Source: an uncultured Clostridia bacterium (GTDB lineage Bacteria; Bacillota; Clostridia; Christensenellales; Borkfalkiaceae). Taken from it: a stretch of DNA of 32,418 nt. Positions 6,669 through 31,090 of this stretch are shown piece by piece (positions within the stretch are counted from its first letter, which is position 1; every line of letters begins with the position of its first letter). The translations under genes and the position numbers were made by a program. The notes under the pieces were generated by a model that was given only the letters and a program-made list of their open reading frames with translations, ran no database searches and had not been told where the DNA came from. The stretch lies in NCBI GenBank assembly GCA_944358655.1, contig CALVRO010000016.1, positions 1-32,418 of the forward strand, read 5' to 3'.

Positions 6669-6746
6669 ACATATTACTATATCGCGAGTATGCGCCCCCA
6701 AGCAGATAATTTACAAAAAATTTTTAAAAAAAGATGATAAAAATGC

Positions 6747-13331: not shown

Positions 13332-13406
13332 TTTTGGTGCTAATATGCTGTTGCAAAGCCGCAGAAGATGAAAGCGGCAAACAAAATATTCCTAAAGGAG
13401 GGTATG

Positions 13407-16400: not shown

Positions 16401-17699
16401 AGACTGGGCGGCTGGTCTAACACCAACAACTACAACATGAACACCGAACTCTATCAGAATCAGTGGGGCAGCATGGCTTACTTCGTAACCGACGGTTACA
16501 TCGGTTGGAAGACGCGCACCGATCCCGACATGATGGTCCGCGCAGGCAACGTTGTAGAACTTTACACCACACCTTTCGTAGAGTATCTCTCGGGTGAATG
16601 GGACGCCGATAAGAAGATGGTAGTCATCGACACCGTCGATCAGTCTACCAGTAAGAACGTCACCGTCGAAAGCCCCACTCAGTGGTACTGCGTGCGTAAC
16701 GCAGCCATGAAGATGCTCTATCAGCTCTCCAACACTTCGGCCCAGTTCAACGGCTACAGCGAACTCACCATTGCCGGCTCGGCTCTTGCCGCGGGCAAGC
16801 AGCACGTCAACTACGAGGCCAGCGTCGCCATCGACAGCAAGATCGACGCCGACTCCGAGGTGACCTACTCCGTAACTTCGGGCAGCCTTCCCGAAGGCCT
16901 CACGCTCGACGCCAACACCGGCAAGATCTCGGGCACTCCCGAAACGACGGGCGAATACAAGTTCACCGTTGAATACATGATAGACGGCTGGGTAGACAAG
17001 ACTGCCGACTACTCCATCAAGATCGACGACGTAGTCACCATAGCCGACGGCAGCGACTCGCTCACCGACCTCAAGGTAGGCCAGGACTTCTACGCCATGC
17101 TCGAATCGGATGAGTTCAACAGCGACAACTACACCTCCATCGAGTGGACGGTAGCAACCGGTTCCGCCCTGCCCGCAGGCCTCGAACTCAAGACGGCCGA
17201 CGGCACGACGACTATCGAGGGCACGCCCACCGAGGCGGGCACTTACACCGTGACCATCCACATCAAGGCCTCCAAGGGCGAAAGCGGCGGTGGCGGCGGA
17301 TTCCCCGGCGGCGGCTCCGGCGGCGGCCCCAGCGGATTCGATATCTCCGCTTATGGCTTCGGCCCCGGCGGCCCCAGCGGCCCCGGCGGCCCCAGCGGCC
17401 CCGGCGGCCCCAGCGGCGGCGGCGACACCTCCTCGGCTACAGAGGTCGACATAGAGCTTGTATTCGTAGTTGCCGAAGCCGACGCACCCGTGGTTGAAGA
17501 ACCCGACTACGTCACCGGCGACGAAGTTCAGGACATGATCGACCAGGCCATCGAAGGCCTCGATAAGGACAGCAACACCGGCGACGAGGGCGGCTGCAGC
17601 GGCAACCTCGGCAGCACCTTCGCGGTAGTGGGCGGAAGCCTTGCTCTTGCGGCGGCCGCGGCGGTAGCCGTAAAGTGCGCAAGAAGAAAGAATAAATAA
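13407..17699 (+). CDS. Secreted, membrane-anchored GH3 enzyme with inverted domain order
   Basis: 1430-residue surface glycoside hydrolase family 3 protein, likely a beta-glucosidase or beta-xylosidase type activity; the substrate is unknown. Domain order is inverted. After a signal peptide (about 1-37) comes the normally C-terminal alpha/beta domain (about 65-460; EGASLLKNRENALPM, LSPSGGL). A fibronectin-like domain (about 510-610) and only then the catalytic barrel (about 825-1120) follow. Barrel motifs are GRNNEYYGQD (916-925), VKHCFMNEQE (949-958) and YFVTDG, whose Asp1029 is the expected nucleophile. Two putative Ig-like domains (about 1134-1193 and 1224-1288), a Gly/Pro/Ser-rich linker with GPGGPS repeats, and a C-terminal helix with basic tail (about 1404-1430) complete it. 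The start at 13407 suits AAAGGAGG; an ATG one codon earlier is too close. Confidence 0.88.
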   Translation: MLKAKTGKKAVKSLSAIAVAVVMGASVFAGTGIASAAEGDGAQTTTGNLTKYYSDYNSMEEAKKAAEDLTRQIVGEGASLLKNRENALPMKGSEWVSVFGVTSDNLIGASDSSGAFSSGSTGSDETLAAALEHAGFKVNPTLKNFYSNDTSEIGKEVTDFPGSVDSSTKLYNDAAFIVLSREGGEGSDASRVTDQTVDEDDDHLALYTDEDGKTYKHYLMLTDEEEELIEYVTARFEKVIVITNTSNAMELEDLENNDKISAILHIGRPGVGGLAGVTDILTGLSPSGGLVDEWMADFTTDPTWYNFGSNNQTGGQTVENGAGSNSYRRENGAVVGSSDDWQKGDEVAADKITATTDDKGNTTYKDDQGNECVKDGDKYYLKADTYTSYDTEGFHGVDYEEGIYLGYKYYETVYTEIANGNLTYDAAKGTLTENTYGEPRQTEATLNAAEEWWEENVLYPYGYSLNYTTFSFNAGGIFTDEACSKALGATGLADMFASSVGKEAEVDKIYVPVTVKNTGSVAGKKTVQAYVSAPYYSGEVEKAAVTLCGFAKTDMLEPGEEQTIVIEINVQDMASWDYKDANTNQNQGCYEMDEGKYTIRLMEDSHYDFKTDVSDNTDAYDEVTFTLEKDAILRLDDYSGNELENLFSAENGSADGTTKLGDHDYNNIRTAEMMADGESGMTIISRGSMVSTFPKAPTVDDLTFKNEVLDNIGYWDNFRVTATPEIDSSTGLEVEGTSTYEFGPSYDKESDPWYVSKDEIPAGWTQATGVYDEDHKVQNNRTETSNPMWVSQATEDTIKFKDMAGVELYNADGTVNEKWVKFMNQLTYDEMCSLIEFAGYSTADIASVGKLKTEDSDGPNNWDSSHCWASADIIGATFNTELANKQGTIMGNIGLLLGRNGWYAPGADIHRSPFSGRNNEYYGQDGFANGTIAASVIQGVQSKGIICYVKHCFMNEQETNRGNVFTWCDEQAMRENYARSFQIALQEGESTAAMVGYGRLGGWSNTNNYNMNTELYQNQWGSMAYFVTDGYIGWKTRTDPDMMVRAGNVVELYTTPFVEYLSGEWDADKKMVVIDTVDQSTSKNVTVESPTQWYCVRNAAMKMLYQLSNTSAQFNGYSELTIAGSALAAGKQHVNYEASVAIDSKIDADSEVTYSVTSGSLPEGLTLDANTGKISGTPETTGEYKFTVEYMIDGWVDKTADYSIKIDDVVTIADGSDSLTDLKVGQDFYAMLESDEFNSDNYTSIEWTVATGSALPAGLELKTADGTTTIEGTPTEAGTYTVTIHIKASKGESGGGGGFPGGGSGGGPSGFDISAYGFGPGGPSGPGGPSGPGGPSGGGDTSSATEVDIELVFVVAEADAPVVEEPDYVTGDEVQDMIDQAIEGLDKDSNTGDEGGCSGNLGSTFAVVGGSLALAAAAAVAVKCARRKNK
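17361..17414 (+). repeat. Three 18-bp tandem repeats encoding GPGGPS
   Basis: GGCCCCGGCGGCCCCAGC is repeated three times without change (17361-17378, 17379-17396, 17397-17414). It encodes a collagen-like Gly-Pro-Gly-Gly-Pro-Ser linker in the first GH3 protein. Identical copies suggest slippage-prone length variation. Confidence 0.85.
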
Positions 17700-17737
17700 C
17701 CTCCCCTCTGATATCCCGTAAAAGGGATGTCGAAAAA

Positions 17738-17791
17738 TCAGGCAGACAGGGTATGCCGGAGTATTCCGGCATACCCCATGCCTGACATTTT
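17738..17791 (+). terminator. Terminator after the first GH3 gene with alternative outer pairing
   Basis: The inner stem GGGTATGCCGGA/TCCGGCATACCC (17749-17776) is extended by TCAGGCA (17738-17744) pairing with TGCCTGA (17779-17785), then CATTTTT. The same 5' strand, as TCAGGCAGA, can instead pair with TCTGCCTGA at 17796-17804. A small hairpin GATATCCC/GGGATGTC (17710-17729) precedes it. Confidence 0.75.
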
Positions 17792-17867
17792 TAAATCTGC
17801 CTGAAAATTTTGTATGTTGCGGCCATTGCCGCAAAATGGGGCGGCGGACGTCCGCCTCTTAACAATT

Positions 17868-17897
17868 AAATTTGTAAAAAATGCAATAAAATTTGTA
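17868..17897 (+). promoter_or_regulatory. 9-bp direct repeat with 21-bp period
   Basis: AAATTTGTA occurs at 17868-17876 and 17889-17897, i.e. 9-bp repeats separated by 12 bp. This is the spacing used by LytTR-family regulators, although the sequence is AT-rich and not a consensus match. It lies 30 bp before the lipoprotein ATG. A 14-bp palindrome GGCGGACGTCCGCC lies at 17843-17856. Confidence 0.4.
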
Positions 17898-17927
17898 CAA
17901 AACCCCTAAAAAGGAGAACACATAACC

Positions 17928-19049
17928 ATGAATATCAAAAAGATATCTTTTGCATGCGCCTCGCTGCTGTGTGCGGCGGCGCTCACGGGCTCGCTTGCGG
18001 CCTGCGGCAACGGCAGCGACGAGGACAAGGTCACCTATACCGTTACCTTCGACACCGACGGCGGCAGCGCCGTGGCCTCGCAGACGGTGGAGGAGGGCTC
18101 CTATGCCACCCGCCCCGAAGAGGATCCCACCAAGGAAGGCTTCGTGTTCGGCAACTGGTACGCCGACGAGGATCTCGAAGATCCCTTCGAGTTTGAAACT
18201 ACTGTAATTTCCGAGGACACCACCGTCTACGCCAGCTGGGTAGACGAAAGCAGCGCCCTCACCGCCACATTCTATTGGAACTACGACGGCGCGCCCGACA
18301 ACGGCGTGTATAAGACGGTCAGCTTCGAAAAGGGCGGCCGCGTCGGCGCCGTGGCCGATCCCTCGCGCGCGGGCTACGCGTTCGGCGGCTGGTACACCGA
18401 GGACGGCGAGGAATTCAAGCCCGCCCTCAGGTACGAGTCTTCCGTGGGGTTCTACGCCAAGTGGTCTAACTCCTTCACGTTCGAGGCAGAATATACCCAG
18501 CTCACGGGCCTCTTCGACGATCCAAGCTACCTCGTCACCGGCGAAAACTGCGACAAGGCGGGCAACAACTATTCGGGCAACACCTCCGGCCTCAACCTCA
18601 TTCAGGGCAACGCCGCGGCCAGCAACGGCAAGTACGTCACCGGCCTCTTCTACAACGGCGGATATCTCGAGTTTGAAATCACCTCCGACAAGGCCGTCAC
18701 CGACGCTCAGCTCAAGCTCGTGCTCGGCTGCGAATATGCCGACATAACTCTCACTGCCGCCACCTATCAGGTGGAAGTCAACGGCTCTTTTGTGCCCTAC
18801 ACGGCCACGATAAAGCTGGGCGACGGCACCGAATGGACGCCCAACCCCGGTCTGCGCGGCAGCTGGCAGGAGATCAACATAGGCAACATCACCCTTAACG
18901 AGGGCGTAAACAGCATAATTCTCCGCGTCAACAACAGCGAAACTCCCTGCGGCGACGCGGGCACAATCGACGCCGCCTCGCCCATGGTGGACTGCATCAA
19001 GATAATCGCCGACGCGCAGCTCACCATGACGGAATATAACAAGCAATAA
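17928..19049 (+). CDS. Lipoprotein with two InlB-type repeats and a CBM6/35-like domain
   Basis: 373-residue surface lipoprotein. A type II signal peptide ends in LAAC with Cys26 as the lipidated residue. Two Listeria-Bacteroides (InlB B/Flg_new) repeats follow: about 36-105 (YTVTFDTDGGSAV, GFVFGNWYAD, TTVYASW) and about 111-180 (GYAFGGWYTEDG, VGFYAKW). The C-terminal half (about 183-363) has the pattern of a carbohydrate-binding module of the CBM6/CBM35 group: FEAEYTQLTG at its start, NGKYVTGLFYNGGYLEFEI, ITLNEGVNSIILRV and a final VDCIKI. It probably holds glycan substrate at the cell surface for the neighbouring GH3 enzymes. The next gene starts 12 bp downstream, indicating an operon. Confidence 0.85.
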   Translation: MNIKKISFACASLLCAAALTGSLAACGNGSDEDKVTYTVTFDTDGGSAVASQTVEEGSYATRPEEDPTKEGFVFGNWYADEDLEDPFEFETTVISEDTTVYASWVDESSALTATFYWNYDGAPDNGVYKTVSFEKGGRVGAVADPSRAGYAFGGWYTEDGEEFKPALRYESSVGFYAKWSNSFTFEAEYTQLTGLFDDPSYLVTGENCDKAGNNYSGNTSGLNLIQGNAAASNGKYVTGLFYNGGYLEFEITSDKAVTDAQLKLVLGCEYADITLTAATYQVEVNGSFVPYTATIKLGDGTEWTPNPGLRGSWQEINIGNITLNEGVNSIILRVNNSETPCGDAGTIDAASPMVDCIKIIADAQLTMTEYNKQ

Positions 19050-19061
19050 GGAGCTCCTGCA

Positions 19062-19511
19062 ATGGAAGCTGTTAAAAAATTTATGGCGGGCAGAGGGGTA
19101 GGCTACTACCTCTCGCTGCTCGCGCTGATATGCGGCATAGTGGGCGTTGCCACTTACACGGCCACGGGCACAAATTCGTTCAACCCCGAGCTCAACGTAA
19201 GCTGCCTCGTCTGCTGCTGGCTGGCGGTGGCGCTGTGCGCCGCTACCGTCGCGTTCAACTTCAAGGATATCCGTTACATAGCCGCCATGCTCTTTTTATA
19301 CGGCTTTTTAATGTTTATCTACTCGCAGGTCAACTATATCGCCAACGTGTTCGTCGGCATCGACGGCAACGTTCTGACGGGCGAGTTCTTCTGCGCGTTC
19401 GTAACATTGTTCCTCGCGTTTGTGCTGTCGCTGCTCGCGGGCATACTCACAAAATGGCGCCCTTGGACGGGCCGCAACGCAGGCACGGAGGTAAAGAATG
19501 AAACTGTTTAA
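19062..19511 (+). CDS. Small four-helix membrane protein, unknown function
   Basis: 149 residues with four predicted transmembrane helices (about 14-33, 46-65, 71-90 and 108-129). There is a Cys-rich second helix (CLVCCWLAVALC) and a basic C-terminal tail, so both ends are probably cytoplasmic. No family is recognised. GGAG precedes the ATG. Its last 14 bases overlap the start of the second GH3 gene, implying translational coupling and a shared role, for instance a partner of the membrane-anchored hydrolase. Function is not assigned. Confidence 0.8.
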   Translation: MEAVKKFMAGRGVGYYLSLLALICGIVGVATYTATGTNSFNPELNVSCLVCCWLAVALCAATVAFNFKDIRYIAAMLFLYGFLMFIYSQVNYIANVFVGIDGNVLTGEFFCAFVTLFLAFVLSLLAGILTKWRPWTGRNAGTEVKNETV

Positions 19512-22425
19512 AAGAAGACTGTGGGAGGGCCTGACCCTCGGCTTTACGTCGCTGTTCGTGTTCATGACGGGCGCGTACACCATAGCCATGAGCCAGAGCA
19601 CTACGATAAACAAAGAATTAAATATTTCCACTTCGGAAATCATCCGCTCGGACGACCCGCAGTATCAGCACTTTAAAAGCGAATACGGCGACGACTATGC
19701 AAAGCTCCAGTCCGACTACCTCGCTCTGGGCGAGGAGGTGGAGGCGAGCGGCCTCGTCCTCCTAAAGAACGACAACAACGCCCTGCCCCTCGCCGAGGGC
19801 GAAAAGGTCAGCACCTTCCTGACGGGTTCGGTAAAGTTCAACTACGCCACTTCGGGCTCCTCGGCGGCCAACACCGAGGGCTACACCGACCTCAAAACGG
19901 CCCTCACCGAAGCGGGGCTCGAGGTCAACACCAAGCTGTGGGACTTCTATTCCCAGCAGCTCCTTCTGGGCAAGGGCAGGACTAAGCTGGGCTCCAACAG
20001 GCCCGTCTACCAGGTCAGGGAGCCCTCCTACGAGAGCATCGGCCAGGACGTTACGGCCACCTTCCCGGAATACGGCACGGCCATAGTTTCCATCGCGCGC
20101 GACAGCGGCGAGGGCGGCGACATAAACGCCGTCCAATCCGACACGCTCGACGGCAGCTATCTCACCCTCTCCAAGGAGGAGCTGGGAGTTTTACAGAACC
20201 TCAGCACCCTCAAGGTCAACAAGCAGATCAAAAAGATAATAGTGCTACTCAACTCCTCGGCCACCATCCAGCTCGACTTCCTCGAAGCCGAGGGCGTCGA
20301 CGTAGACGCCTGCCTGTGGATAGGCAACGTGGGCAAGAGCGGCATCTCGGGCGTGGCCAAGGCGCTCACGGGCGAATATGTGCCGAGCGGCAAGCTTTCG
20401 GACACCTACCTCAAGGACAACATGTCCTCCCCCGCAATGATGCAGCAGTCCTACAACAAGGACAGCTACTTCATGAGCGCGTACGAGGACTCCGACAAGC
20501 TTGAGGACAAGACGCAGAAGTACTACGGCGTCTACTCCGAGGGCATCTACGTCGGCTACCGCTACTTCGAAACGAGGTACTACGACTATGTGACGGCGAG
20601 CGAGGAGAGGAACACGGGCGAATACGACTATAACGCCGACGTCGCCTATCCCTTCGGCTACGGCCTCAGCTACACGCAGTTCGAATACACAAATTTCAAC
20701 GTCGACTACGACGAGGCGGCCGAACAGTACATAGTCACGCTCAACGTCGTCAACAAGGGCGACACCTATACGGGCAGGGAGGCGGTCGAAGTCTACCTTC
20801 AGAAGCCCTACACGCAGGGCCGCGTGGAAAAGGCGGCCGTCGAGCTCGTCGGCTACGACAAGACCGAGGCCCTCGCCCCCGGCGAAACGAGCGAAACCAT
20901 AACCATCAAAATAGACAAGAGCCAGCTGACAAGTTACGACTACGAGGGCGCGGAGACCTACGTTCTCGACGAGGGCGACTACTACTTCACCGTCGCCAAC
21001 GGCTCGCACGAGGCCGTCAACAACATCCTCGCGGCGCAGGGCAACACGCCCGAAAACACCAAGGGCCGCATGGACGCCGTCGGCAATAAGGACGTAGTGG
21101 CCTCCTTCTCCCTCGACTACGACGGCGAGACCTATTCGGTCTCCGAACACACCGGCGGGGAGATAACCAACCGCCTCGGCTTTGCCGACCTCAACATATA
21201 CGAGGGCACCGACGCAAGCGTCACCTACGTCTCCCGCGCCGACTGGACGGGCACCCTTCCCAAGGCTGCCATAACCGTCAAGGCGACCGACACGCTTGTT
21301 GCCGACCTCGCCTTCAATCACGAAATAGAGACCGATCCCGAGGCTGCAATGCCCGCATACGGCAGAAATAACGGCTACACCATAACCGAACTGCGCGGCG
21401 AGCCCTACAACAGTCAGAAGTGGGAGGATCTGCTCGACCAGATGACGTGGGAAGATCAGTCCCTGCTCATCACCAACGGCAAGTATCAGAGCGACCCTCT
21501 GAGCTCGGTAGCCAAGCCCGACACCACCGAAAACGACGGCCCCACGGGCGTAGGCGGCTCCAAGGGCAGCCTGTCCCTGCCCAGCGAGGGCATATGGGCC
21601 TCCACGTTCGACGACGACCTCATCCGCAGGGTGGGCGAGCTGCTCGCCGAGGACGCCATAGCCGCCGACAAGGACGGCATATACGCCCCCGCCTGCAACA
21701 TTCACCGCACCCCCTTCGGCGGCAGGAGCCACGAATACTTCTCCGAAGATCCCTACCTGTCGGGCAAGGCCTGCGCCGTTGAGGTGCAGGGCATACAGTC
21801 CAAGGGCGTGGTGGCCTTCGTAAAGCACATAGCCTTCAACGATCAGGACGACTACCGCTCGGGCGGCGCGGTATGGCTCAACGAGCAGGCGGCCCGCGAG
21901 ATCTACCTCAAACCCTTCGAGTACTCGCTCTCCTCGGCCGAGGGCATGGGCAACGCCCACGCCGCAATGTCGGCCATGAACCGCGCGGGCGCAGCGTGGG
22001 TGGGCGCAAGCGAAGCGCTTCTCACCGACATAATGCGCGGCGAATGGGGCTTCGACGGCTACTGCGTCACTGACATGGCCGACTCCGACACCAAGATAAT
22101 GATGTCCTATCAGGACGGCGTTCCCGCCGGCACCGATCTCTTCCTCGGCCAGGGCTTCACCTACACGCTCGACGAATACAAGGGCAACGCCACCTACGCG
22201 CAGGCCATGCGCGAGGCGTGCCACAGAATACTCTACGTCATCTCCAACTTCAGCGTGGCCGTCAACGGCATGACGCCCGATACCCCCGTGGGCGTTTCAA
22301 GCTGGTGGTGGTCGAACACGCTCGTTGCGGTGATGTGCGTATTCGGCGTGGCGGCGGGCGGCAGCATAGCCATGTACGTTGTGTGCAGGCTGAGGGAAAG
22401 AAAGTCTGCCGCCGCGGCAAAATAA
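19498..22425 (+). CDS. Membrane-anchored GH3 enzyme with inverted domain order, second copy
   Basis: 975-residue GH3 protein anchored at both ends: an uncleaved N-terminal helix (about 12-31) and a C-terminal helix (about 938-965) followed by RLRERK. The domain order is again inverted: alpha/beta domain (about 66-395; ASGLVLLKNDNNALPL, VPSGKLSDTY), fibronectin-like domain (about 401-500), then the catalytic barrel (about 642-918). Motifs are closer to textbook GH3 than in the first copy: GGRSHEYFSEDPYLSG (around 742-757), FVKHIAFNDQD (around 774-784), GFDGYCVTDMAD with Asp859 as expected nucleophile, and GTDLFL. GGAGG precedes the ATG. It ends an operon with the CBM lipoprotein and the small membrane protein. 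Substrate specificity cannot be read from sequence. Confidence 0.92.
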   Translation: MKLFKRRLWEGLTLGFTSLFVFMTGAYTIAMSQSTTINKELNISTSEIIRSDDPQYQHFKSEYGDDYAKLQSDYLALGEEVEASGLVLLKNDNNALPLAEGEKVSTFLTGSVKFNYATSGSSAANTEGYTDLKTALTEAGLEVNTKLWDFYSQQLLLGKGRTKLGSNRPVYQVREPSYESIGQDVTATFPEYGTAIVSIARDSGEGGDINAVQSDTLDGSYLTLSKEELGVLQNLSTLKVNKQIKKIIVLLNSSATIQLDFLEAEGVDVDACLWIGNVGKSGISGVAKALTGEYVPSGKLSDTYLKDNMSSPAMMQQSYNKDSYFMSAYEDSDKLEDKTQKYYGVYSEGIYVGYRYFETRYYDYVTASEERNTGEYDYNADVAYPFGYGLSYTQFEYTNFNVDYDEAAEQYIVTLNVVNKGDTYTGREAVEVYLQKPYTQGRVEKAAVELVGYDKTEALAPGETSETITIKIDKSQLTSYDYEGAETYVLDEGDYYFTVANGSHEAVNNILAAQGNTPENTKGRMDAVGNKDVVASFSLDYDGETYSVSEHTGGEITNRLGFADLNIYEGTDASVTYVSRADWTGTLPKAAITVKATDTLVADLAFNHEIETDPEAAMPAYGRNNGYTITELRGEPYNSQKWEDLLDQMTWEDQSLLITNGKYQSDPLSSVAKPDTTENDGPTGVGGSKGSLSLPSEGIWASTFDDDLIRRVGELLAEDAIAADKDGIYAPACNIHRTPFGGRSHEYFSEDPYLSGKACAVEVQGIQSKGVVAFVKHIAFNDQDDYRSGGAVWLNEQAAREIYLKPFEYSLSSAEGMGNAHAAMSAMNRAGAAWVGASEALLTDIMRGEWGFDGYCVTDMADSDTKIMMSYQDGVPAGTDLFLGQGFTYTLDEYKGNATYAQAMREACHRILYVISNFSVAVNGMTPDTPVGVSSWWWSNTLVAVMCVFGVAAGGSIAMYVVCRLRERKSAAAAK

Positions 22426-22464: not shown

Positions 22465-22500
22465 AATGCAGCCCGCACGCAAAACGTGCGGGCTGCATTT
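22465..22500 (+). terminator. Hairpin terminator after the second GH3 gene
   Basis: AATGCAGCCCGCACG pairs with CGTGCGGGCTGCATT around CAAAA. The T-run is short (TTT), but the 15-bp stem is very stable. Its 3' end overlaps the TGCATTTCATG motif. Confidence 0.7.
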
Positions 22501-22544
22501 CATGCTAAAAATATTTCGAGTTAGCCGCTTAGTATTGAAATGCA
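22494..22544 (+). promoter_or_regulatory. TGCATTTCATG motif and inverted copy upstream of the two-component operon
   Basis: TGCATTTCATG at 22494-22504 is identical to the core of the direct repeat before the first GH3 gene. TGAAATGCA at 22536-22544 is its inverted 9-base core and overlaps the -35 box. The two are 42 bp apart, twice the 21-bp period seen at 13231-13268. Confidence 0.45.
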
Positions 22545-22563
22545 TGCGCTTTTATGATAAAAT
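22535..22563 (+). promoter_or_regulatory. Sigma-A promoter of the two-component/acylation operon
   Basis: TTGAAA, 17 bases, TAAAAT. The leader (about 22570-22633) contains two GC-rich hairpins, GGGCGG/CCGCCC (22575-22590) and CGGCGGGCG/CGCCCGCCG (22598-22622). The second directly abuts the GGGGG Shine-Dalgarno of the kinase gene. Confidence 0.75.
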
Positions 22564-22633
22564 TTAAGCGGTTGGGGCGGACAGCCGCCCATCATTCCGG
22601 CGGGCGTTTTACGCGCCCGCCGATGGGGGTACA

Positions 22634-23982
22634 ATGGAAGAATTGTTCATGTATTTCACCTTCGTCTACGACTGGGTGAACGTTCTGCAGCTCATAGCTG
22701 TGTCCTTTTCGGTGGTGCTCGTGCTCAGTTCGGTCAAGCCGGACGGGCAGGGCCTCATCCGCTTCTGCGTAGAGGTGGTGTGCGTGTTCGCGGGCGAAAC
22801 GCTCTTCAACTGGCTGCTATTCTATCTCTCGCACTATTTAAAGTGGCTGGCGGGCATCAACTTCCCGCTCGCCCACCTTATAGTCATCACCATATATGCG
22901 GCCGCTGTGTGCAAATACAACGTCAAAAGCCGCATAGTGCTGGGCGGAACGGTGTTCGTAACGGCCATAGCCATGGCCGAGCTCGGCGCGCAGAGCATGC
23001 GCTTTTTCGCCTCGGGCGGCAGCGTCTCCCACCTGCTCGCCGTGGCCACCGACATACTCATAGTCGTCTTTGCCGAGCTCATCCATCTGCGCTCCATCCA
23101 CGTCTACGAAGATATCCCCAAGATATCCGTAGGCGCCATACTCGTTGTGGCGCTGCCTCCACGGGCATTGTCGGCCTTGTGGAAGTGCACTCGCTCGGCA
23201 ACGAGCTCGTCACCGACGGCTTCATCTGCCTCGTGCTGCTCTACGTCTATCTGGTCACCGTCGCCGTCTATCTGGTCACCTATCACCACTGCACCGAGCA
23301 CAACGCCAAACTCGTGCTCGAGGTCGATAAAAAGCTGATGGAGGCCGACATAGAGATGCTCTCCCTCTCCGAGCAGCTGGCCGAGGAGATGAAGGAGGTG
23401 CGCCACGACATAAAGAACGAAATGCTCGTAATGGGAGTGATGCTGCGCGAAAAGAAGTACGACGAAATGGAAAAGTACTTCAACAACATGAAGAAGGACT
23501 TCGCGCGCTTTCCCCACTTCACCGACTGCGGCAACGACTCCATAAATTCCATAATGAATATGGAGACTTTGAAGGCCGCCTCCAAAAACGTGCAGATAAT
23601 CAGCAAAATCAACGTTCCGCCCGTCCTTCCCATAACCGTCAACGACCTCTGCCGCATCTTCGTCAACCTGCTCGACAACGCGATAGAGGCGTCAGAAAAA
23701 GCCATAGGGGGTGACCGGATAGTCGACTTAAATGTGCACATGCAGAACGACTATCTGTACATAAGCGTATCCAACCCGATAGGGGAGGAGGCCGACCGCG
23801 CCGCGGCGCTCAGGCTCAACACCACCAAGAGCGACTACAAAAACCACGGCTACGGCCACAAGATAGTGCAAAAAATAGTCGATAAATATAACGGATATAT
23901 CAATTACTCGATAGAGGGCGACGAATTTATTGCCGAAGCGTTGCTCGATATAAATACGGAGGCAAAAGATGATACAAATTAA
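22634..23982 (+). pseudogene. GHKL-type sensor histidine kinase, frameshifted as given
   Basis: AgrC/LytS-like membrane sensor kinase of about 449 residues if one base is restored. The first frame (from the ATG at 22634) gives several transmembrane helices up to ISVGAILVVALP. From about 23153-23160 the protein continues in the frame one base back as STGIVGLVEV, last helices, coiled-coil linker, H-box EVRHDIKNEM (His near residue 258 after correction), N-box CRIFVNLLDNAIEAS and G-box GYGHKIVQKIVDKYNG. The junction CTGCCTCC lacks one base, most simply a third C. No slippery heptamer is present, so a sequencing/assembly error or true mutation is likelier than programmed frameshifting. The downstream frame remains intact and overlaps the response regulator by 14 bases. 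Confidence 0.85.
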
Positions 23983-24727
23983 CTTTGCCGTGTGCGATGA
24001 CGACGAAATCGTTCTGGACGCCGTCTGTCAGAGGGTGCACGCCATATTCAAAAGGTGCGGCGTGGAAGCCACGGGGGTAAAATACCTCTCGCCCGTCAAG
24101 CTGTACGAGCAAATAAAGGACGGCGAAAAGAAGATGAAGTACAACCTCATCTGTCTGGATATCGACATGCCCAAGCTCGACGGCGTGTCCCTCGGCAAGG
24201 CCATACGCGAAAACAGCCCCGAAACCGACATAATATTCGTGTCCAACCGCGAGGACAGGGTGTTCGACACCCTTCTTAACGTCCGCCCCTTCGGCTTCGT
24301 GCGCAAGAACAACTTTTCGTCCGACCTTATGGACACGCTGCGCGCGTATATCGTTTCCAAGATAGACACCAACCACTATTTCGTAATAAAGACGGACAAC
24401 AACTCGGTCACCCGCTCGCTGCGCGTCGTCGACATAGTGTATATCGAAAGTTTCAGAGATCACCAGTTCATCTACATGCAGGACGGCGAAAAGATAGACA
24501 TCCGCATGACCATGGACGAGCTCGAAAGGGAGCTTTCCAAGTACGACATAGTGCGCACGCACAAGGGCTTCCTCGTCAACTTGAAGTACGTTCAGCGCAT
24601 CGACACAAAGGGCATAACTCTGCCGGGCGGCGTGGTGGCGGGCCTCAGCCGCACAAAGGTGCAGGAGGTCAGGGCGCAGTACTTAAAGTATCTTCGGAAG
24701 ACAGGCGCCTCGCTGATAAGCAACTGA
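23969..24727 (+). CDS. LytTR-family response regulator (AgrA-like)
   Basis: 252-residue transcription factor. The receiver domain (about 1-125) has the acidic pocket CDDDE (9-13), the phosphoacceptor Asp64 in ICLDIDMPKLDG, and a conserved Ser/Lys segment (VSNRED, FGFVRKN). The LytTR DNA-binding domain (about 140-245) has VVDIVYIESFRDHQFIYM, MTMDELERELSKYDIVRTHKGFLVNLKYVQRID-type sequence and LSRTKVQEVRAQYLKYLR. Such regulators bind two direct repeats one 21-bp period apart. It overlaps the kinase gene and is followed after one base by the first SGNH gene, so it is part of the same transcript as the acylation genes. Confidence 0.93.
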   Translation: MIQINFAVCDDDEIVLDAVCQRVHAIFKRCGVEATGVKYLSPVKLYEQIKDGEKKMKYNLICLDIDMPKLDGVSLGKAIRENSPETDIIFVSNREDRVFDTLLNVRPFGFVRKNNFSSDLMDTLRAYIVSKIDTNHYFVIKTDNNSVTRSLRVVDIVYIESFRDHQFIYMQDGEKIDIRMTMDELERELSKYDIVRTHKGFLVNLKYVQRIDTKGITLPGGVVAGLSRTKVQEVRAQYLKYLRKTGASLISN

Positions 24728-24728
24728 A

Positions 24729-26171
24729 ATGAAAAAACCTGTTTTAAAGACCGTTCTGGCCGTCCTCACGGCCTTGGCGTGCGTTGCGGCGCCCTTTCTG
24801 GCCATATTTTTAACGGGCGTATGCCTGCCTCCGCAGTTCTCGCAGACGTGGTATGGTGCCTTTCCCGCCATGTATGATAAACTTGCCTCCGCCGAGGGCA
24901 AAAGGCTGATAGTCGCGGGCAATTCCAACGTCGCCTTCGGCGTCGACTCGGCGCTCGCCGAACAGCTGCTCGCCGAGTGCGGGCTGGACTACACCGTGTG
25001 CAACTTCGGCCTCTACGGCTCGCTGGGCACCAAAATGATGCTCGATATCGCCGTGGAGGAGGCAAGGGAGGGTGACATAGTCGTGCTCGTGCCCGAGCTC
25101 GCCGCGCAGGCGCTCTCAACATATTTTTCGGCAGACGAGGCGTGGTACGCCATAGACGGCGACATGTCGATTTTTTTTGCCTTCAACGGCGAGGGGAAGG
25201 GCGCGTTGGCGGGTGCATATGCCTCGTACACCGCCAGAAAGCTTGAATATTTCGCAGGCGGCGAGCCCGCCTCGCCCAGCGGAATATACGCCTCGTCCTC
25301 CTTTGACGAAAACGGCGATCTCAAAAATTACCCCCGCCAATATAACGCGATGAGCGGCGGTTTCGACAAGAACAACCCCCTCGCTCTCGATATCTCGCTC
25401 TACGCTCCCGACTTCGTGGCCTACGTCAACGGGTGCGCCGCGGAGCTGGAGCGCAGGGGCGCAAAGCTCATGTATTCCTTCCCGCCCATGAACGCCTCGG
25501 CCTTTTCGGGGGAGAGGGACGAGCGCTCCTTTCAGACGGCCGTCACCGACCTCTTCGACTGTCCCGTCATCAGCGACGTGGCCGATTATATAATGGAAGA
25601 GGGGTGGTTTTACGACAGCAACTTCCACCTCAACTCGGCGGGCATGACGGTGCGCACCGTGCAGCTCGTCAACGACATAAAAAATGAGCTCGGCAACACC
25701 TCCAAGACGGAGATCGACCTGCCCAACATGCCCGTCGCGCCCGACGAGGACGTCGATGGCGAGGGCGACAACTCGTGCAAGGACTGTTTCACCTACGAGC
25801 TCGTCGACGGATACTACACCGTCACGGGCCTCACCGAGGAGGGCGCGGGCAGGAGCGAACTCGTTCTGCCCTATCAGGTCAACGGCATCTACATAAACAA
25901 TTTCACGGCCGAAGTGTTCGCAGGCAACACGGCGGTGCAGAGCATATATATCCAGGGCAATATATCCGTGCTGCCCGACGGCGCCTTCAGCGGCTGCTCG
26001 TCGCTTTCGGCCGTATATCTCGCCCACGGCGATCCCGCCGACATATCCGTCGGCTATTCGCTGTTCGAGGGCGCGCCCCGCATGAGGGTGTATGTGCCCG
26101 AAGAGGCGCTCGGCGCATTTACCAACAACTATTTCTGGGGGCGTTATGCAGACAGGCTCGGGGCGTATTAA
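24729..26171 (+). CDS. SGNH-fold surface protein with C-terminal leucine-rich (BspA-type) segment
   Basis: 480-residue exported protein with one N-terminal anchor helix (about 9-31). The first part (about 55-325) follows an SGNH hydrolase/DltD-like acyl-transfer fold: nucleophile motif VAGNSNVAFGVDS (Ser66), CNFGLYGSLG (block with Gly/Asn role, about 91-100), EGDIVVLVPE, a YSFPPMNAS strand, and the catalytic pair in FYDSNFHLNSAG (Asp296 and His300). A short acidic linker leads to a C-terminal region (about 350-475) resembling BspA-type leucine-rich repeats (SELVLPYQVNGIYINNF, IQGNISVLPDGAFSGCSSLSAVYL). No Shine-Dalgarno is seen, and the ATG lies one base after the response regulator stop, so translation is probably coupled. 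The acyl group and the acceptor are unknown. Confidence 0.75.
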   Translation: MKKPVLKTVLAVLTALACVAAPFLAIFLTGVCLPPQFSQTWYGAFPAMYDKLASAEGKRLIVAGNSNVAFGVDSALAEQLLAECGLDYTVCNFGLYGSLGTKMMLDIAVEEAREGDIVVLVPELAAQALSTYFSADEAWYAIDGDMSIFFAFNGEGKGALAGAYASYTARKLEYFAGGEPASPSGIYASSSFDENGDLKNYPRQYNAMSGGFDKNNPLALDISLYAPDFVAYVNGCAAELERRGAKLMYSFPPMNASAFSGERDERSFQTAVTDLFDCPVISDVADYIMEEGWFYDSNFHLNSAGMTVRTVQLVNDIKNELGNTSKTEIDLPNMPVAPDEDVDGEGDNSCKDCFTYELVDGYYTVTGLTEEGAGRSELVLPYQVNGIYINNFTAEVFAGNTAVQSIYIQGNISVLPDGAFSGCSSLSAVYLAHGDPADISVGYSLFEGAPRMRVYVPEEALGAFTNNYFWGRYADRLGAY

Positions 26172-27978
26172 GTGCGCCGTAACAATAGTATTGTGCGCGC
26201 TGTTCGCGCTCTTCGCGCCCGCGTGCGCGAAGGAGGAGGCGGGCAAGACGGTGGCCGTCACCATTGCCGACAGCCTGTTCTTTACGCCCTCCGTGGGCGC
26301 GGCGAGGGTGGAGCCCGGCTCCGACTTTACGGTCACTCTGAACATGCTGTCGGGCAGCGAGTTTATCTCGTGCGACTACGCCGACTACTCTGTCGAGCGG
26401 ACGGCCGTCGACTGCTACGAGCTCACCCTGCACAACGTGACGGCGCCCTCGCGCGTCACCGTGACCTCTCAATTTGTCGAGCCTCAAACGCTGCGCGAGC
26501 CCAGATACTGCTCCATAACCTACGTCAACGGCGGAGAGCGGTACGAGCGCGACTACACCCTCACCGAGCACATACGCCCCAACACATGGAACGGGCAGGA
26601 GCTCGAAAGGGAGGGCTACACCCTGCTCGGCTGGAACACCGCTGCAGACGGCAGCGGCGAGCACATAGGTCTCGGCAGCCGCGTGACGGTGGAGGACGGC
26701 GGGCACATAACTCTGTACGCCGAATGGGTGGAGTGGCTGCCCGAATCCGACTTCCTCTTCGCCCCCGTTGGCGACGGCACGGCCGAACTGACGGGCTACC
26801 GCGGCAGCGGCGACATGCCCCTCTTTGTGGTGCCTGGCATGGCGGGCGGCATGCCCGTCGGCAGCATAGCCTCCTCGCTCACCACAAACATACCCTGCGG
26901 ATCGCTCTCCTCGCACACCCTCGTGCTGCCCGATACGGTCACGCGCGTGGCGGGCAGCGCCTTTGTCAACTCGTCCTTCTCGGAGATATATTTCTTTGAT
27001 AACATGGAGTATATCGACGATACCGCCTTTCCGCACAATCTCACCACCTATCACGTCAACGCGGCCGTGCCGCCCCACTATCAGGACATAAACACCAGCA
27101 CATATTACGCTGACGACGTCGACAGGCTCATCCTCACGGCGGGGCAGAGGCGGATGATATTCTTCGCGGGCTGCTCGTTTGCCTACGGCGTCAACAGCCG
27201 CATGGCCGAAGCGGCGCTCGGCGGGCAATATACCGTGTGCAACATGGGCGTCAACGGCGACATAAACGGCGCCGTGCAGATGGAAGTAATACTCAACTAT
27301 ATCGCCGAAGGCGACATACTTGTGCACTCGCCCGAGGTGATGAGCGCCCCGCAGCTGATGTCCTCGCTGTATATCGACGGCAGGTTTTTCATCATGTGCG
27401 AGGGCAACTACGATCTTCTCGCCATACCCGATTTTTCGGGCATTAACACAATGATAGGCGCCTACAACCACTATGTCACCATACGCGAAGAGCAGGAGGA
27501 GTGCTCCTACTCGGACGGCGTCACCAACTACTTCAACCAATACGGCGACTTCATAATCACCACGCCCTACACCGAGGACGACGAGGTCGAGCGCGACGTC
27601 AGCTACAGCAACAACGCCTACAACTTCGCGCCCGATATGCTCACCGAGGAGGGCATGGACAGGCTGTGCGCCTACTACGACGCCGCCCGCGCCAAGGGCG
27701 CCACGGTGTGCGTGTCCTACGCCCCCACCAACGCCAGCGCCGATACTTCGCCCTCTGTGTTGGAGGCGGGCGCCGCGTTCGATAATAAGTGGCGCGCCAT
27801 GCTGGCCGAGCGCGGCTATTCGCTCATCTCCGACTACCGCCGCCATATATATCCCGGCAGGTTTTTCCACGACTCGGACTATCACATGAACCCCATGGGC
27901 GCCATACTGCACACCGACCAACTGCTCGCCGACTTAGAGGCGGCGGGCGTAGTAAAACTCAGCGTGGGGAGGCAATGA
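26146..27978 (+). CDS. Second SGNH-fold surface protein with InlB-type and leucine-rich modules
   Basis: 610-residue exported protein. A signal sequence (about 8-28) ends in APAC, so Cys27 may be lipidated, although the lipobox is imperfect. One InlB B/Flg_new repeat (about 121-194; YCSITYVNGGERY, GYTLLGWNTAADGSG, ITLYAEW) is followed by a BspA-like leucine-rich stretch (about 205-300) and a C-terminal SGNH domain (about 336-600). Key residues are FAGCSFAYGVNS (Ser344), VCNMGVNGDING (about 364-374), EGDILVHSPE, SYAPTNAS and FHDSDYHMNPMG (Asp576, His580). The SGNH part is paralogous to the upstream protein, but the accessory modules are on the other side. The frame is open from 26092; 26146 gives a clean signal peptide, overlaps the upstream gene by 26 bases and has only a weak GGGGG before it. 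Confidence 0.75.
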   Translation: MQTGSGRIKCAVTIVLCALFALFAPACAKEEAGKTVAVTIADSLFFTPSVGAARVEPGSDFTVTLNMLSGSEFISCDYADYSVERTAVDCYELTLHNVTAPSRVTVTSQFVEPQTLREPRYCSITYVNGGERYERDYTLTEHIRPNTWNGQELEREGYTLLGWNTAADGSGEHIGLGSRVTVEDGGHITLYAEWVEWLPESDFLFAPVGDGTAELTGYRGSGDMPLFVVPGMAGGMPVGSIASSLTTNIPCGSLSSHTLVLPDTVTRVAGSAFVNSSFSEIYFFDNMEYIDDTAFPHNLTTYHVNAAVPPHYQDINTSTYYADDVDRLILTAGQRRMIFFAGCSFAYGVNSRMAEAALGGQYTVCNMGVNGDINGAVQMEVILNYIAEGDILVHSPEVMSAPQLMSSLYIDGRFFIMCEGNYDLLAIPDFSGINTMIGAYNHYVTIREEQEECSYSDGVTNYFNQYGDFIITTPYTEDDEVERDVSYSNNAYNFAPDMLTEEGMDRLCAYYDAARAKGATVCVSYAPTNASADTSPSVLEAGAAFDNKWRAMLAERGYSLISDYRRHIYPGRFFHDSDYHMNPMGAILHTDQLLADLEAAGVVKLSVGRQ

Positions 27979-28223
27979 TGGAGAGCGTGATACTTTCGTC
28001 GCCCGTGCTGCTGTGCGGGTATATGGCGGCGCTTGCGCTGTGCGTCGTCGGAATAGTCAAAAAGACGGGCTTCTGGCTGACGGCCCTGTCGGCCATAGTG
28101 TTCGTAGGAACGAGCATATATGCCCTCCTGTCGGGCGCGTCGCTCGAGGAGGCGGGCATAGCCGCCATAATCTTTTTGTGCGTAAACATAGCCGCGCTGC
28201 CGCGCGGGAGGGGGGATAAATGA
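27978..28223 (+). CDS. Small three-helix membrane protein
   Basis: 81 residues, almost entirely hydrophobic, with three predicted helices (about 6-26, 32-54 and 57-75) and a basic end (PRGRGDK). No family is recognised. GGGGAGG lies five bases before the ATG at 27978; another ATG directly before it is also possible. It overlaps the upstream stop codon and shares an ATGA overlap with the MBOAT gene, so it is tightly coupled to the acyltransferase. By position it may be an accessory subunit, loosely comparable to the tiny DltX protein of dlt operons, but there is no visible sequence similarity. Confidence 0.75.
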   Translation: MESVILSSPVLLCGYMAALALCVVGIVKKTGFWLTALSAIVFVGTSIYALLSGASLEEAGIAAIIFLCVNIAALPRGRGDK

Positions 28224-29710
28224 ACTTCAACTCCATTGAATTTCTCATCTTCCTGCCCGTGGTCGTAACGGCGTATTGGCTGCTGCCCTTCAAGGCGCGT
28301 TGGGTGCTGCTTTTGGCGGCGTCGCTGTTCTTCTACATGAGCTGGAACGTCTGGCTCATCATCCTCATAGGCATAACCACGGTCACGGCCTACGTCGCGG
28401 CCATAGCCGTGTCGCGCACGGACAACGTAAAGTTAAGAAAGGCGTGGCTCATAGCAACGCTCGTCATCTGCCTCGGTATACTCATATTCTTCAAGTACAT
28501 AAACTTTCTTTTAGAAAGCGCCGTGGGGGTCATAAGGCTGTTCAACGCCGGTCAGGCGGACATAGTGCTGGACATAATCCTGCCCGTCGGCATAAGCTTT
28601 TACACCTTCCAGACGCTGTCGTATGTGATAGACGTCTACCGCGGCGACTACCCCGCCGAAAGGCACTTCGGGTATTTTGCGCTGTACGTCACCTACTTTC
28701 CGCAGCTGGTTGCGGGGCCGATAGAAAAGCCGGGCACGCTGCTGCCACAGCTGAGGACGGAACAAAAGCTCAATTCGGACGACCTGTTGGAGGGCGGCAA
28801 GTGGCTGATATCGGGCTTTTTCCGCAAGTGCGTGGTGGCCGACTTCTGCGGCATCTTCGTCAACAAGGTGTACGCCGACCTCGGCTCGGCCAACGCCCTG
28901 GCGGTGTTCGCCGCGAGCGCGCTCTTTCTCTTCCAGATCTACAACGACTTCGCGGGCTACTCCGAAATCGCCCTCGGCAGCGCGCGGCTCATGGGCGTAA
29001 AGCTGACGCACAACTTTGAAAAGCCGCTCACCTCGGCTTCGTTCACCGAATTCTTCCGCCGCTGGCACATAACGCTCAACCAATGGTTCACGCAGTATGT
29101 GTACATACCTCTGGGCGGCAGCCGCTGCGGCAAGTGGCGCAGGGTGCTCAACACCATGATAGTCTTTGCGCTCTGCGGACTGTGGCACGGCGCCAACTGG
29201 ACGTTTGTGCTTTGGGGCCTCGCGGCGGGCGTATTTGTCAGCATAGAGAGCCTCATCCGCAGGCCCGTAAGGGCGTTCTGCAACGAGAAGGGCATAGACC
29301 TTCAAAGTCCGGGCGTGCGGTTCATAAGGCAGATAGCCGTGTTCATGCTGTTCGTGCCGTGCTGCATACTCTTCCGCGCGCAGAACGTGGCGGAGATAGG
29401 CGTGGCGTTCACGCGGCTGTTCACGGCGTGGGGCTTCGGCGGCGAGTACTTTGCCGCCGCATTCCAAAGCCTCGGCATGGACGGCGGCAGGCTTATAATG
29501 CTTGCGGCCAGCCTCGCGGGCATGGTGCTCGTCTACCGCCTGCCGAGGGGCGACAGCTCGCCCTCTCTGCCGTTGAGCGGCGGATATGCGCGGGTCAACT
29601 ACAACTGCACGGCGGCCGTGTTCATCTACGGCGCGCTCGCCGTGGCGTTCTGCTGGCTGGCCCTTCTTGCCGGCTCGGACGTCAGCGGCTTCGCCTATTT
29701 CCAATTCTGA
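28220..29710 (+). CDS. MBOAT-family acyltransferase (AlgI/DltB type)
   Basis: 496-residue polytopic membrane O-acyltransferase that would pass an activated acyl group across the membrane to an extracellular acceptor. Typical family blocks are present in order: IEFLIFLPVV at the N-terminus, ILPVGISFYTFQTLSYVIDVYRG (about 119-142), PQLVAGPIEK (161-170), FQIYNDFAGYSEIALGSARLMG (about 238-259), FFRRWHITLNQWFTQYVYIPLGG (about 278-300, His283) and the catalytic-histidine segment CGLWHGANW (His323). Length matches AlgI/DltB relatives. It is linked to an AMP-forming ligase and two SGNH proteins, the set of activities used in Dlt D-alanylation and in alginate-type acetylation. It is linked by an ATGA overlap to the small membrane protein. 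Confidence 0.93.
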   Translation: MNFNSIEFLIFLPVVVTAYWLLPFKARWVLLLAASLFFYMSWNVWLIILIGITTVTAYVAAIAVSRTDNVKLRKAWLIATLVICLGILIFFKYINFLLESAVGVIRLFNAGQADIVLDIILPVGISFYTFQTLSYVIDVYRGDYPAERHFGYFALYVTYFPQLVAGPIEKPGTLLPQLRTEQKLNSDDLLEGGKWLISGFFRKCVVADFCGIFVNKVYADLGSANALAVFAASALFLFQIYNDFAGYSEIALGSARLMGVKLTHNFEKPLTSASFTEFFRRWHITLNQWFTQYVYIPLGGSRCGKWRRVLNTMIVFALCGLWHGANWTFVLWGLAAGVFVSIESLIRRPVRAFCNEKGIDLQSPGVRFIRQIAVFMLFVPCCILFRAQNVAEIGVAFTRLFTAWGFGGEYFAAAFQSLGMDGGRLIMLAASLAGMVLVYRLPRGDSSPSLPLSGGYARVNYNCTAAVFIYGALAVAFCWLALLAGSDVSGFAYFQF

Positions 29711-29725
29711 AAGGGATATTTTTGT

Positions 29726-31090
29726 ATGATACCATCCGAAAAACTCATCTACGACTACTTCCGCGCCTTCGCGGCCGAGCGGCCGCACGACAGGTTTATC
29801 TTCGATGAGGCGCGCTCATACACCGTATTGCAGTCCTTCCGCATAATAAAGAACATGTCCGCGCAGCTAAGGTGCGCGGGCGTGAGAGCGGGGGAGGAGG
29901 TGCGGCTGTCCGCCTCGCGCGACGTGCGCACCATCCTCAACTTCTTCGCGCTGCAGTTCATAGGCGCCATGGCCGTGCTCGTCGACCCGCACGATGAGTT
30001 GGAGGCAGCGAGGTATATCATAAAAGAGGGCGTACTATATGCCGACGAACGCAAAATCCCCCTCGAATTCAACGACTGCGACAGCGACTTCGCGTCCTCG
30101 GGCGACAGCAGAACGCCCACTATAACCATATTTACCAGCGGCTCCACGGGCAAGCCCAAGGCCGTGCGGCTCAGCCAGTACAATTTCATCAACAACTCGC
30201 GAGACACGCGCGATATCGGCGGGTACTATCCCGACGATATCAACATAGACATAGTGCCCATTCACCATGTGTTCGGTTTGGCGCTCATCTTCACGGCGGT
30301 GGTCACGCGGCATGCCATATTCGTGCCGCGCAGCGTTCAGCCCGACTACATAGTCGAAAGCGTCATAAAGTACGGCGCCACGCGGCTCAACGGCGTGCCG
30401 TCGCTGTACCTTGCCATGGCGGAGAGCGCGCGGGCGGGCGAAATAACCACCCTGAGGTGCGGGCTTATAGGCGGCGCGCCGTGCACGGCCGAACAGTTCG
30501 AAAGGATAGAGCGCGGCATAGGCATAACGCTCATACCCGTTTACGGGCTGAGCGAGTGCATAGCCATAAGCTGCGGCAGCTACAGGGACTGCGCCGAAGT
30601 CAGGCGCACGACGGTAGGCAGGGTGTACTCCATGAACGAGGTGCGCATCGCCGCCGACGGCGAAATACTTGCCAAGAGCCCGGCCATGGCCGAGGGTGCC
30701 GCCGCCGAGGACGGCTGGCTGCACACGGGCGATCTGGGCTATCTGGATACGGAGGGATATCTGCACGTTAGTGGCCGCAAAAAGGATATAATCATCCGCA
30801 ACGGCAACAACCTCTCCGCCGTGGCGATAGAGCAGGCCATACTCGCCCTGCCCGAGGTAAAGGACGCGTGCGTGGTGGGGATATCCGACGATAAAGAGGG
30901 CGAAGTTCCCGCAGCTTTGATAGTGCTATCCCCCGACATATGTGCCGACGAAGAGCAGATAAACAATAAAATCTCCGCAGTTTTACCAAAGCCCATGCGG
31001 CCCAAGCGCGTCATTTTCGCTCCTGCCATGCCCTTCACCTCCTCGGGCAAGCCCGACAAACCCGCCATCCGCGCCCTGTTTGGGCAATAA
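29726..31090 (+). CDS. AMP-forming acyl/aminoacyl ligase (ANL superfamily)
   Basis: 454-residue cytosolic adenylate-forming enzyme. Core motifs are A3 TIFTSGSTGKPKAVRLS (about 134-150), IHHVFG (179-184), A5 YGLSEC (273-278), A7 HTGDLG (Asp336), A8 GRKKDIIIRNGNN (350-362) and the C-terminal catalytic lysine region FTSSGKPDKPAIR (Lys442). It is shorter than most family members because the N-terminal domain is compact. In this operon it should activate the acid that the MBOAT and SGNH proteins transfer, as DltA does with D-alanine. No acyl/peptidyl carrier gene is visible, so the carrier may be encoded elsewhere or the product may be a CoA ester. AAGGG precedes the ATG, 15 bp after the MBOAT gene; it is the last gene of the operon. 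Confidence 0.9.
   Translation: MIPSEKLIYDYFRAFAAERPHDRFIFDEARSYTVLQSFRIIKNMSAQLRCAGVRAGEEVRLSASRDVRTILNFFALQFIGAMAVLVDPHDELEAARYIIKEGVLYADERKIPLEFNDCDSDFASSGDSRTPTITIFTSGSTGKPKAVRLSQYNFINNSRDTRDIGGYYPDDINIDIVPIHHVFGLALIFTAVVTRHAIFVPRSVQPDYIVESVIKYGATRLNGVPSLYLAMAESARAGEITTLRCGLIGGAPCTAEQFERIERGIGITLIPVYGLSECIAISCGSYRDCAEVRRTTVGRVYSMNEVRIAADGEILAKSPAMAEGAAAEDGWLHTGDLGYLDTEGYLHVSGRKKDIIIRNGNNLSAVAIEQAILALPEVKDACVVGISDDKEGEVPAALIVLSPDICADEEQINNKISAVLPKPMRPKRVIFAPAMPFTSSGKPDKPAIRALFGQ

Follow-up and report, generated by a model that had tools for sequence, protein, structure and literature searches.

The window analysed here is the complete 32,418-nucleotide contig CALVRO010000016.1 (C16) of an uncultured Clostridia bacterium of the family Borkfalkiaceae. 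Its source (GCA_944358655.1) is a draft genome, probably a metagenome-assembled genome (MAG), of 1.85 Mb in 66 contigs and 92.6% complete. Positions 22634-31090 carry seven tightly packed genes on the + strand, joined by overlaps or by gaps of a few bases. In order, they encode a GHKL sensor kinase (22634..23982), a LytTR response regulator (23969..24727), two putative SGNH proteins, SGNH1 (24729..26171) and SGNH2 (about 26146..27978), an 82-amino acid microprotein (27975..28223), an MBOAT protein (28220..29710) and an adenosine monophosphate (AMP)-forming enzyme resembling acyl-coenzyme A (CoA) ligases (29726..31090). The regulator overlaps the kinase by 14 nucleotides, SGNH1 follows after a gap of 1 and SGNH2 overlaps it by about 26. 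The microprotein and the MBOAT gene each overlap the preceding gene by 4 nucleotides, and the ligase follows after 15. The GHKL, response regulator/LytTR, MBOAT and AMP-binding domains exceed their Pfam cut-offs. This gene cluster is real and conserved, and probably a variant of MBOAT-SGNH envelope acylation. The comparisons cover the genus (93 genomes), a sample of the order (396 genomes) and the 80 best named loci; handles beginning with G and L denote individual genomes and loci.

The MBOAT domain (PF03062) scores 102.8 bits against a Pfam cut-off of 27. The protein ends in FAYFQF, which matches the FxYxxF acyl-shuttle motif, and H283, H323 and the tyrosine of the hexapeptide, Y493, are invariant in 16 of 16 aligned sequences. 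F.Y..F also closes 77 of the 80 named MBOAT relatives; the other three are a split open reading frame (ORF), a short ORF and one protein ending in FIFFQF. This last, from a Candidatus Vogelbacteria MAG (L116:149-1654), has phenylalanine in place of the shuttle tyrosine. According to the parts of PMC12148441 consulted, PatA self-acetylates by the hexapeptide and DltX carries D-alanine by it. Acyl-tyrosine chemistry is described there for both proteins, and PatA, the studied MBOAT with a fused shuttle, uses acetyl-CoA. With its built-in acyl shuttle, the MBOAT of the cluster appears to belong to the PatA/AlgI type, the PatA assignment resting on the fused motif.

SGNH1 consists of an N-terminal helix, a predicted SGNH domain and a C-terminal leucine-rich repeat (LRR) domain; its candidate catalytic residues S66, D296 and H300 are invariant in 16 of 16 aligned proteins. 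SGNH2, lipoprotein-like by eye, has InlB B-repeat and LRR parts and a predicted C-terminal SGNH domain (S344, D576, H580). Among 16 aligned proteins S344 and H580 are invariant, and D576 is kept in at least 90%. A Pfam scan of both proteins returned no SGNH match. In the predicted model of SGNH1 (pLDDT 84.9), the C-terminal part is a good match to an LRR domain (2lz0, 42% identity) and the SGNH part a marginal one to DltD and rhamnogalacturonan acetylesterase; the SGNH2 model (73.9) matches the InlB B-repeat. The InlB-type and leucine-rich modules that an earlier sequence-only reading of this DNA had assigned to the two proteins fall below the Pfam cut-off and are borne out by the structure matches. 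The SGNH identity itself is predicted from the conserved serine, aspartate and histidine together with marginal fold matches.

The microprotein is hydrophobic, with three predicted helices, and measures about 80-104 amino acids in ligase-bearing genomes. In each of the 14 ligase-bearing genomes read from maps (12 of the genus, G396 and G231) its gene either abuts the start of the MBOAT gene or runs into it. Four of five ligase-free genus members have it too, at 179 amino acids in G106; G099 has none. Small hydrophobic ORFs occupy the same position in L072-L075, L079 and L084. Pfam and NCBIfam scans of the family of 18 found no known family, the stray matches being confined to single members; the best was to the MAG0920 family (E 6e-4, 1 of 18). 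Identity with DltX was considered and is ruled out by the three helices and the lack of an FxYxxF hexapeptide end. The microprotein may be a new MBOAT subunit.

The best matches of the ligase in NCBIfam and PDB are acyl-CoA ligases, malonyl-CoA synthetase and MenE. All lie far below equivalog cut-offs, so that the acid is not fixed by them, and a specific acid sought from the sequence was not obtained. The DltA model is not among the best 25 of the 107 NCBIfam matches. As a control, the carrier-linked ligase of G057, a member of the same order, ranks DltA-like (308 bits against a cut-off of 476), and its neighbour gene ranks DltC-like, below the curated cut-off. Carriers were searched for in 12 of the 13 ligase-bearing genus genomes, G061 being left out. 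Exactly one PF00550 gene was found in 11 of these 12 and none in G063 (65% complete). Since the PF00550 search missed the DltC-like gene of G057, it was repeated with that protein and with the DltC model NF003464. The model, which detected the G057 gene, gave no match at E 0.01 in the 12 genomes. The G057 protein as query against seven genus genomes found none, its one row lying at chance level (E 0.36, G028). The source genome, 92.6% complete as a draft, yielded no DltC carrier, and its PF00550 gene sits on another contig. The sequence-only reading saw no carrier gene and recommended looking for a linked phosphopantetheine carrier in relatives; none was found in the cluster, nor by the DltC model in the 12 genomes searched. 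No dedicated carrier was thus found, and the ligase appears acyl-CoA-ligase-like rather than DltA-like. Two inserted genes, each at a single locus, give hints at the chemistry. In G066 a major facilitator superfamily (MFS) transporter lies between ligase and microprotein (L065:14097-15359); its nearest families, below cut-off, are those for L-lactate and oxalate/formate, which, in the more ambitious version set out below, suggests a short monocarboxylate from outside as the acid. In G027 a CatA-like acetyltransferase gene lies between MBOAT and ligase (L030:7799-8527).

Conservation is marked within the genus. Of the 93 genomes, 19 have the MBOAT (E 1e-30), and the ligase occurs in 13 of these 19 (E 1e-25) and in no other; the co-occurrence has a Fisher p of 1e-11, kinship not corrected. 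G061 and G077, with a partial or broken MBOAT, are among the 19, and the G061 ligase is among the 13; the surroundings of both were left out. SGNH1 is present over most of its length in 17 genus genomes, in two pieces in G003. MBOAT is found in 17 of these 17 and the ligase (E 1e-20) in 12. Across the order sample, a ligase at E 1e-60 or better was found in 5 of 396 genomes, two of them in the genus and the others being G396, G231 and G318. G396, of the same family, has the order GH3-SGNH1-SGNH2-microprotein-MBOAT-microprotein-MBOAT-ligase-GH3; its two microprotein-MBOAT pairs stand in tandem (L162:8071-11563), and a second SGNH2-SGNH1 pair lies downstream. In G231, of another family, the order is small membrane protein-GH3-GH3-microprotein-MBOAT-ligase-SGNH1-SGNH2-kinase-regulator-GH3. 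By sequence search, 2 of the 80 best named loci (L072, L073) carry twin SGNH genes, microprotein and MBOAT; L073 also has the ligase and sensor pair, and the L072 stretch ends just after MBOAT. Gene content and largely gene order are therefore kept in related Clostridia, a check that the earlier reading had called for, and rearranged order with kept content points to one functional unit.

The conserved neighbourhood also takes in a block upstream of the kinase (13368-22425, + strand), which the sequence-only reading left out of the unit. It begins with a large GH3-type protein (13368..17699; GH3_C, Fn3-like, GH3_N and He_PIG domains by Pfam, with a C-terminal membrane anchor by eye). This is followed by a 373-amino acid InlB-repeat protein that is lipoprotein-like by eye (17928..19049), a 149-amino acid membrane protein with no Pfam match (19062..19511) and a second GH3 glycosidase (19498..22425; GH3_C then GH3_N, with a nucleophile-like VTDM and, by eye, hydrophobic segments at the two termini). 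Homologues of the block adjoin the cluster in G003 and G088, and partly in G028, G027, G082 and G231; in G085 they lie together with the sensor pair on another contig. The large GH3 homologue stands beside the cluster in G003, G088 and G231 (other contig in G085). The InlB-repeat homologue lies beside GH3 in G003, G088, G082 and G085 (other contig), and in G028 and G027 as well, cut by the stretch end. The 149-amino acid protein is in place in G003, G028, G027, G082, G088, G231 and G085 (other contig), and the second GH3 glycosidase adjoins the cluster in relatives. A GH3 gene shares the fetched stretch in 12 of the 14 ligase-bearing genomes, the misses being G072 and G085. Among the five genus members without the ligase, a nearby GH3 gene was seen in G086. 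Directly 3' of MBOAT, G011 (L031:1410-3911) and G063 (L155:5372-7717) encode a protein with InlB repeats and an alpha/beta-hydrolase part resembling polyhydroxybutyrate (PHB) depolymerases, perhaps a de-esterase of the product.

The adjacent GHKL kinase and LytTR regulator, recognized by Pfam, constitute a two-component system with a split kinase. Intact relatives match the kinase in two frames, about 22625-23160 and 23146-23979, so that the gene is broken here or mis-assembled; either a real frameshift or an assembly error may account for the split. The kinase is a single intact ORF of 453-459 amino acids in G028, G027, G082 and G022. Upstream of it lies a promoter-like site, TTGAAA-17-TAAAAT (22535..22563, 10 of 12 positions). 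Taken by itself this match carries little weight, since the promoter scan returned 9 sites of the kind where 5.5 were expected; the region aligns with four relatives, and a promoter-like region is common to five kinase leaders (the present one, G028, G027, G082 and G022). A strong hairpin between GH3 and the kinase (22465..22499, + strand; -29.2 kcal/mol, z -7.3) is a possible terminator with a short T tail, absent from the terminator scan output. Two boxes, TTTCATG and GTTAGCC, 22 bp apart (22498..22528, + strand), form a candidate LytTR-type site. In the same five leaders, some 35 bp ahead of the -35 element, two boxes lie 21-22 bp apart, a spacing expected for LytTR direct repeats. No such site stands at that position in the kinase leaders of G003, G088, G085 and G011. 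As only part of the leaders have it, the site suggests autoregulation of the sensor pair and goes no further.

The position of the sensor pair varies. In G003 and G088 it precedes the GH3 block, which makes the whole set one co-directional stretch; in G231 it lies behind SGNH2. It is on a separate contig in G085 and G072, and none was seen in the G396 stretch, so that a kinase or regulator shares the fetched stretch in 11 of the 14 ligase-bearing genomes. Loss of the pair from G003, G085 and G088 was considered and rejected: the regulator was found, the pair has the place just given in G003 and G088, and in G085 kinase and regulator follow the GH3 block on another contig, which ends about 250 bases after them. 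The sensor genes of G011, G063 and G066 bear no more than a distant resemblance (E 1e-10 to 1e-13), with just one of the two seen in G063 and G066. The fetched stretches of the five ligase-free genus members showed no kinase of this GHKL type. The proposal of a seven-gene operon behind one promoter and led by the sensor pair stands as regards the tight co-directional genes and their order in this genome; the kinase is not a single ORF, the promoter match is weak alone and the leading position is not general among relatives.

Two MBOAT trees of 29 rows each, both with a midpoint root only, bear on the origin of the system. The first included two long-branched carrier-bearing rows and two from G044 and G052; in the second these four were replaced by G063, G231 and two of G396. 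Neither includes the MBOATs of L036, L038-L040, L043, L044 and L163 (G318), or 74 of the 80 named loci. In the second tree 15 ligase-bearing rows fall on one side of a 99/98 branch that is present in 100% of 200 bootstrap trees. MBOATs of the ligase-free twin-SGNH type adjoin this group. A single branch of ligase-bearing MBOATs fits a single gain of the ligase, and the simplest reading is that the ligase joined an acyl-CoA-using machine once. The alternative of a Dlt system that lost its carrier was rejected, since under the midpoint root the neighbours of the ligase group are MBOAT-SGNH relatives that lack a ligase.

What was computed directly is gene content, its conservation, the conservation of motifs and catalytic residues, the absence of a dedicated carrier from the search results and the tree grouping. 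Taken together, these favour, at a probability of about two-thirds, regulated O-acylation of a surface glycan by a carrier-independent machine, with the acid activated as a CoA thioester. (i) The ligase would activate a carboxylic acid, via acyl-AMP, to acyl-CoA, as its family affiliation suggests. (ii) The MBOAT, of which the microprotein is a likely subunit, would take the acyl group over from CoA and load it onto Tyr493 of FAYFQF at the outer face, by identity with the PatA motif. (iii) The acyl-tyrosine would pass its group to the catalytic serine of SGNH1, SGNH2 or both, esterifying a surface glycan, while the LRR and InlB-type parts may hold these proteins to the polymer or to partners. 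(iv) The GH3 enzymes, given their conserved linkage, may trim or recycle the acylated glycan. (v) The GHKL/LytTR pair, by its linkage, probably controls the locus; autoregulation is the weaker guess. The regulated surface acylation proposed in the sequence-only reading is retained in these terms (ligase, MBOAT and SGNH proteins with a linked sensor pair, content kept), without the Dlt-like wording. A more ambitious version, put forward tentatively and at somewhat less than even odds, sees a new class of regulated surface acylation in Clostridia. Its acid, imported or metabolic, would be neither acetyl nor D-alanyl; a dedicated CoA ligase, a microprotein-MBOAT unit with a self-acylating tail and two SGNH transferases would handle it. 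The class would have arisen by a single gain of the ligase on an acetyl-type MBOAT machine, and membrane-bound GH3 enzymes that shape the same glycan would be part of one regulated unit.

Several observations weigh against regulated, carrier-independent acylation. The acid, the acceptor glycan and the use of CoA are candidates only. The sole NCBIfam match of the MBOAT is DltB (TIGR04091, 123.9 bits against a cut-off of 375), and its best PDB matches are DltB as well. SGNH1 resembles the DltD fold marginally (E 1.4e-3, TM under 0.4), and the SGNH half of SGNH2 matches natural proteins weakly, at E 0.1. Three PF00550 matches were found in each of G396 and G231, outside the cluster. On the side of regulation, the kinase is broken in this assembly and the candidate regulator site is present in only 5 of 9 kinase leaders examined. 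As to linkage, the GH3-kinase-regulator set is on another contig in G072 (cluster contig 8,263 bases) and G085, and G318 shows no more of the cluster than a related ligase divergent to an MBOAT of another type; that MBOAT ends in FLYFRF (L163:9147-12375).

Charging of a housekeeping acyl carrier protein (acyl-ACP), as in a Dlt-like system with a shared carrier, is an unlikely account. The source genome does have one PF00550 carrier gene, and acyl-ACP synthetases belong to the ligase superfamily, one being the last of the best 60 PDB matches. However, that carrier gene lies on another contig, the ligase matches mostly CoA ligases, and among MBOATs with a fused shuttle, the type assigned here, the studied member takes its acyl group from acetyl-CoA (in the parts of PMC12148441 consulted). 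Much the same low odds attach to glycan harvesting, in which the SGNH proteins would be esterases stripping acyl groups outside the cell, GH3 enzymes would free sugars, the ligase would salvage the acid and the MBOAT would have a side role. The intact MBOAT with its invariant histidine and shuttle tyrosine points instead to outward transfer; it accompanies SGNH1 in all 17 genus genomes with that protein, and the window proteins scanned with Pfam include no sugar transporter. Harvesting would nevertheless explain the GH3 genes that accompany the cluster, the InlB/LRR modules, which suit binding, and the alpha/beta-hydrolase protein that ends the cluster in G011 and G063. SGNH2-like genes near GH3 without MBOAT in the fetched stretch (L070:7157-8968 in G086, L071:8041-10248 in G066) likewise leave room for an esterase role, and count against the acylation machine.

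Least probable is a loose neighbourhood, that is, an ordinary MBOAT/SGNH O-acetylation pair beside an unrelated ligase and sensor pair. Shuffled gene order between lineages, and GH3 genes and sensor pairs that are sometimes on another contig than the cluster, would fit it. So would the 5 of 17 genus genomes with MBOAT and SGNH1 and no ligase, which also tell against a ligase-dependent machine. Against this, all 13 ligase genomes are nested within those with MBOAT, the ligase stays near MBOAT in the rearranged orders of two families, and the ligase-bearing MBOATs form one tree branch.

Other genes of the window lie outside the proposed unit. The next gene after the ligase, convergent with it on the - strand (31166-32053), encodes a GrpB domain with a DUF3592-like C-terminal part. 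Genes for YpeB, a cell-wall hydrolase and stage II sporulation protein R (3741-6672) indicate that the organism is likely a spore former.

To our knowledge, the known MBOAT-SGNH systems either use the cell's common acetyl-CoA or, as Dlt does, receive an amino acid from a carrier of their own. A form that is fed by a ligase and has no carrier fills this gap: with it, the choice of the exported acyl group would lie with the bacterium. In the microprotein MBOATs gain a new candidate subunit, and the tree offers a testable origin, with the ligase gained once on an acyl-CoA machine. Through its linkage to GH3 genes and the sensor pair, the cluster suggests that this uncultured lineage has a surface glycan whose trimming and acylation respond to a signal. 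No description of this gene combination was found in the open-licence literature searched.

Comparison with known systems places the cluster more closely. The DltABCDX system of teichoic acid D-alanylation likewise joins an AMP-forming ligase, an MBOAT and an SGNH protein, the last being a predicted one in the cluster. Here, in contrast, no DltC was found, the ligase is not DltA-like and the shuttle appears fused to the MBOAT, with no DltX microprotein. No gene of the cluster qualifies as DltA, DltB (by curated equivalog score), DltC or DltX, so that the label Dlt/Alg-like given earlier loses its Dlt half and the MBOAT is better described as of the PatA/AlgI type. AlgJ and AlgX are the two SGNH proteins of AlgIJFX. 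This alginate O-acetylation system, named in the parts of PMC12148441 consulted, shares the combination of one MBOAT with two SGNH proteins, which are putative in the cluster; a ligase is present only in the cluster described here, and no gene for alginate or other polymer synthesis is among the Pfam matches of the window proteins scanned. CcsHI with CcsZAB, a proposed Clostridial acetylated cellulose synthase (PMC7710045, as far as consulted), is similarly a Clostridia locus with an MBOAT, a partner O-acetyltransferase and a glycoside hydrolase. The present cluster differs in having GH3 rather than GH5, a ligase, twin SGNH proteins and a sensor pair, and no cellulose synthase was found among the window proteins scanned with Pfam. 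PatA/PatB of Gram-negative peptidoglycan O-acetylation and PatA1/PatB1, which act on a secondary cell wall polysaccharide, have, like it, an MBOAT with C-terminal FxYxxF, a separate SGNH partner (a predicted one in the cluster) and no carrier, none having been found here (PMC12148441, same parts). Beyond the PatA/PatB plan, the cluster encodes a ligase, a three-helix microprotein, GH3 enzymes and a two-component system, and its putative SGNH proteins are two paralogues that carry LRR/InlB modules.

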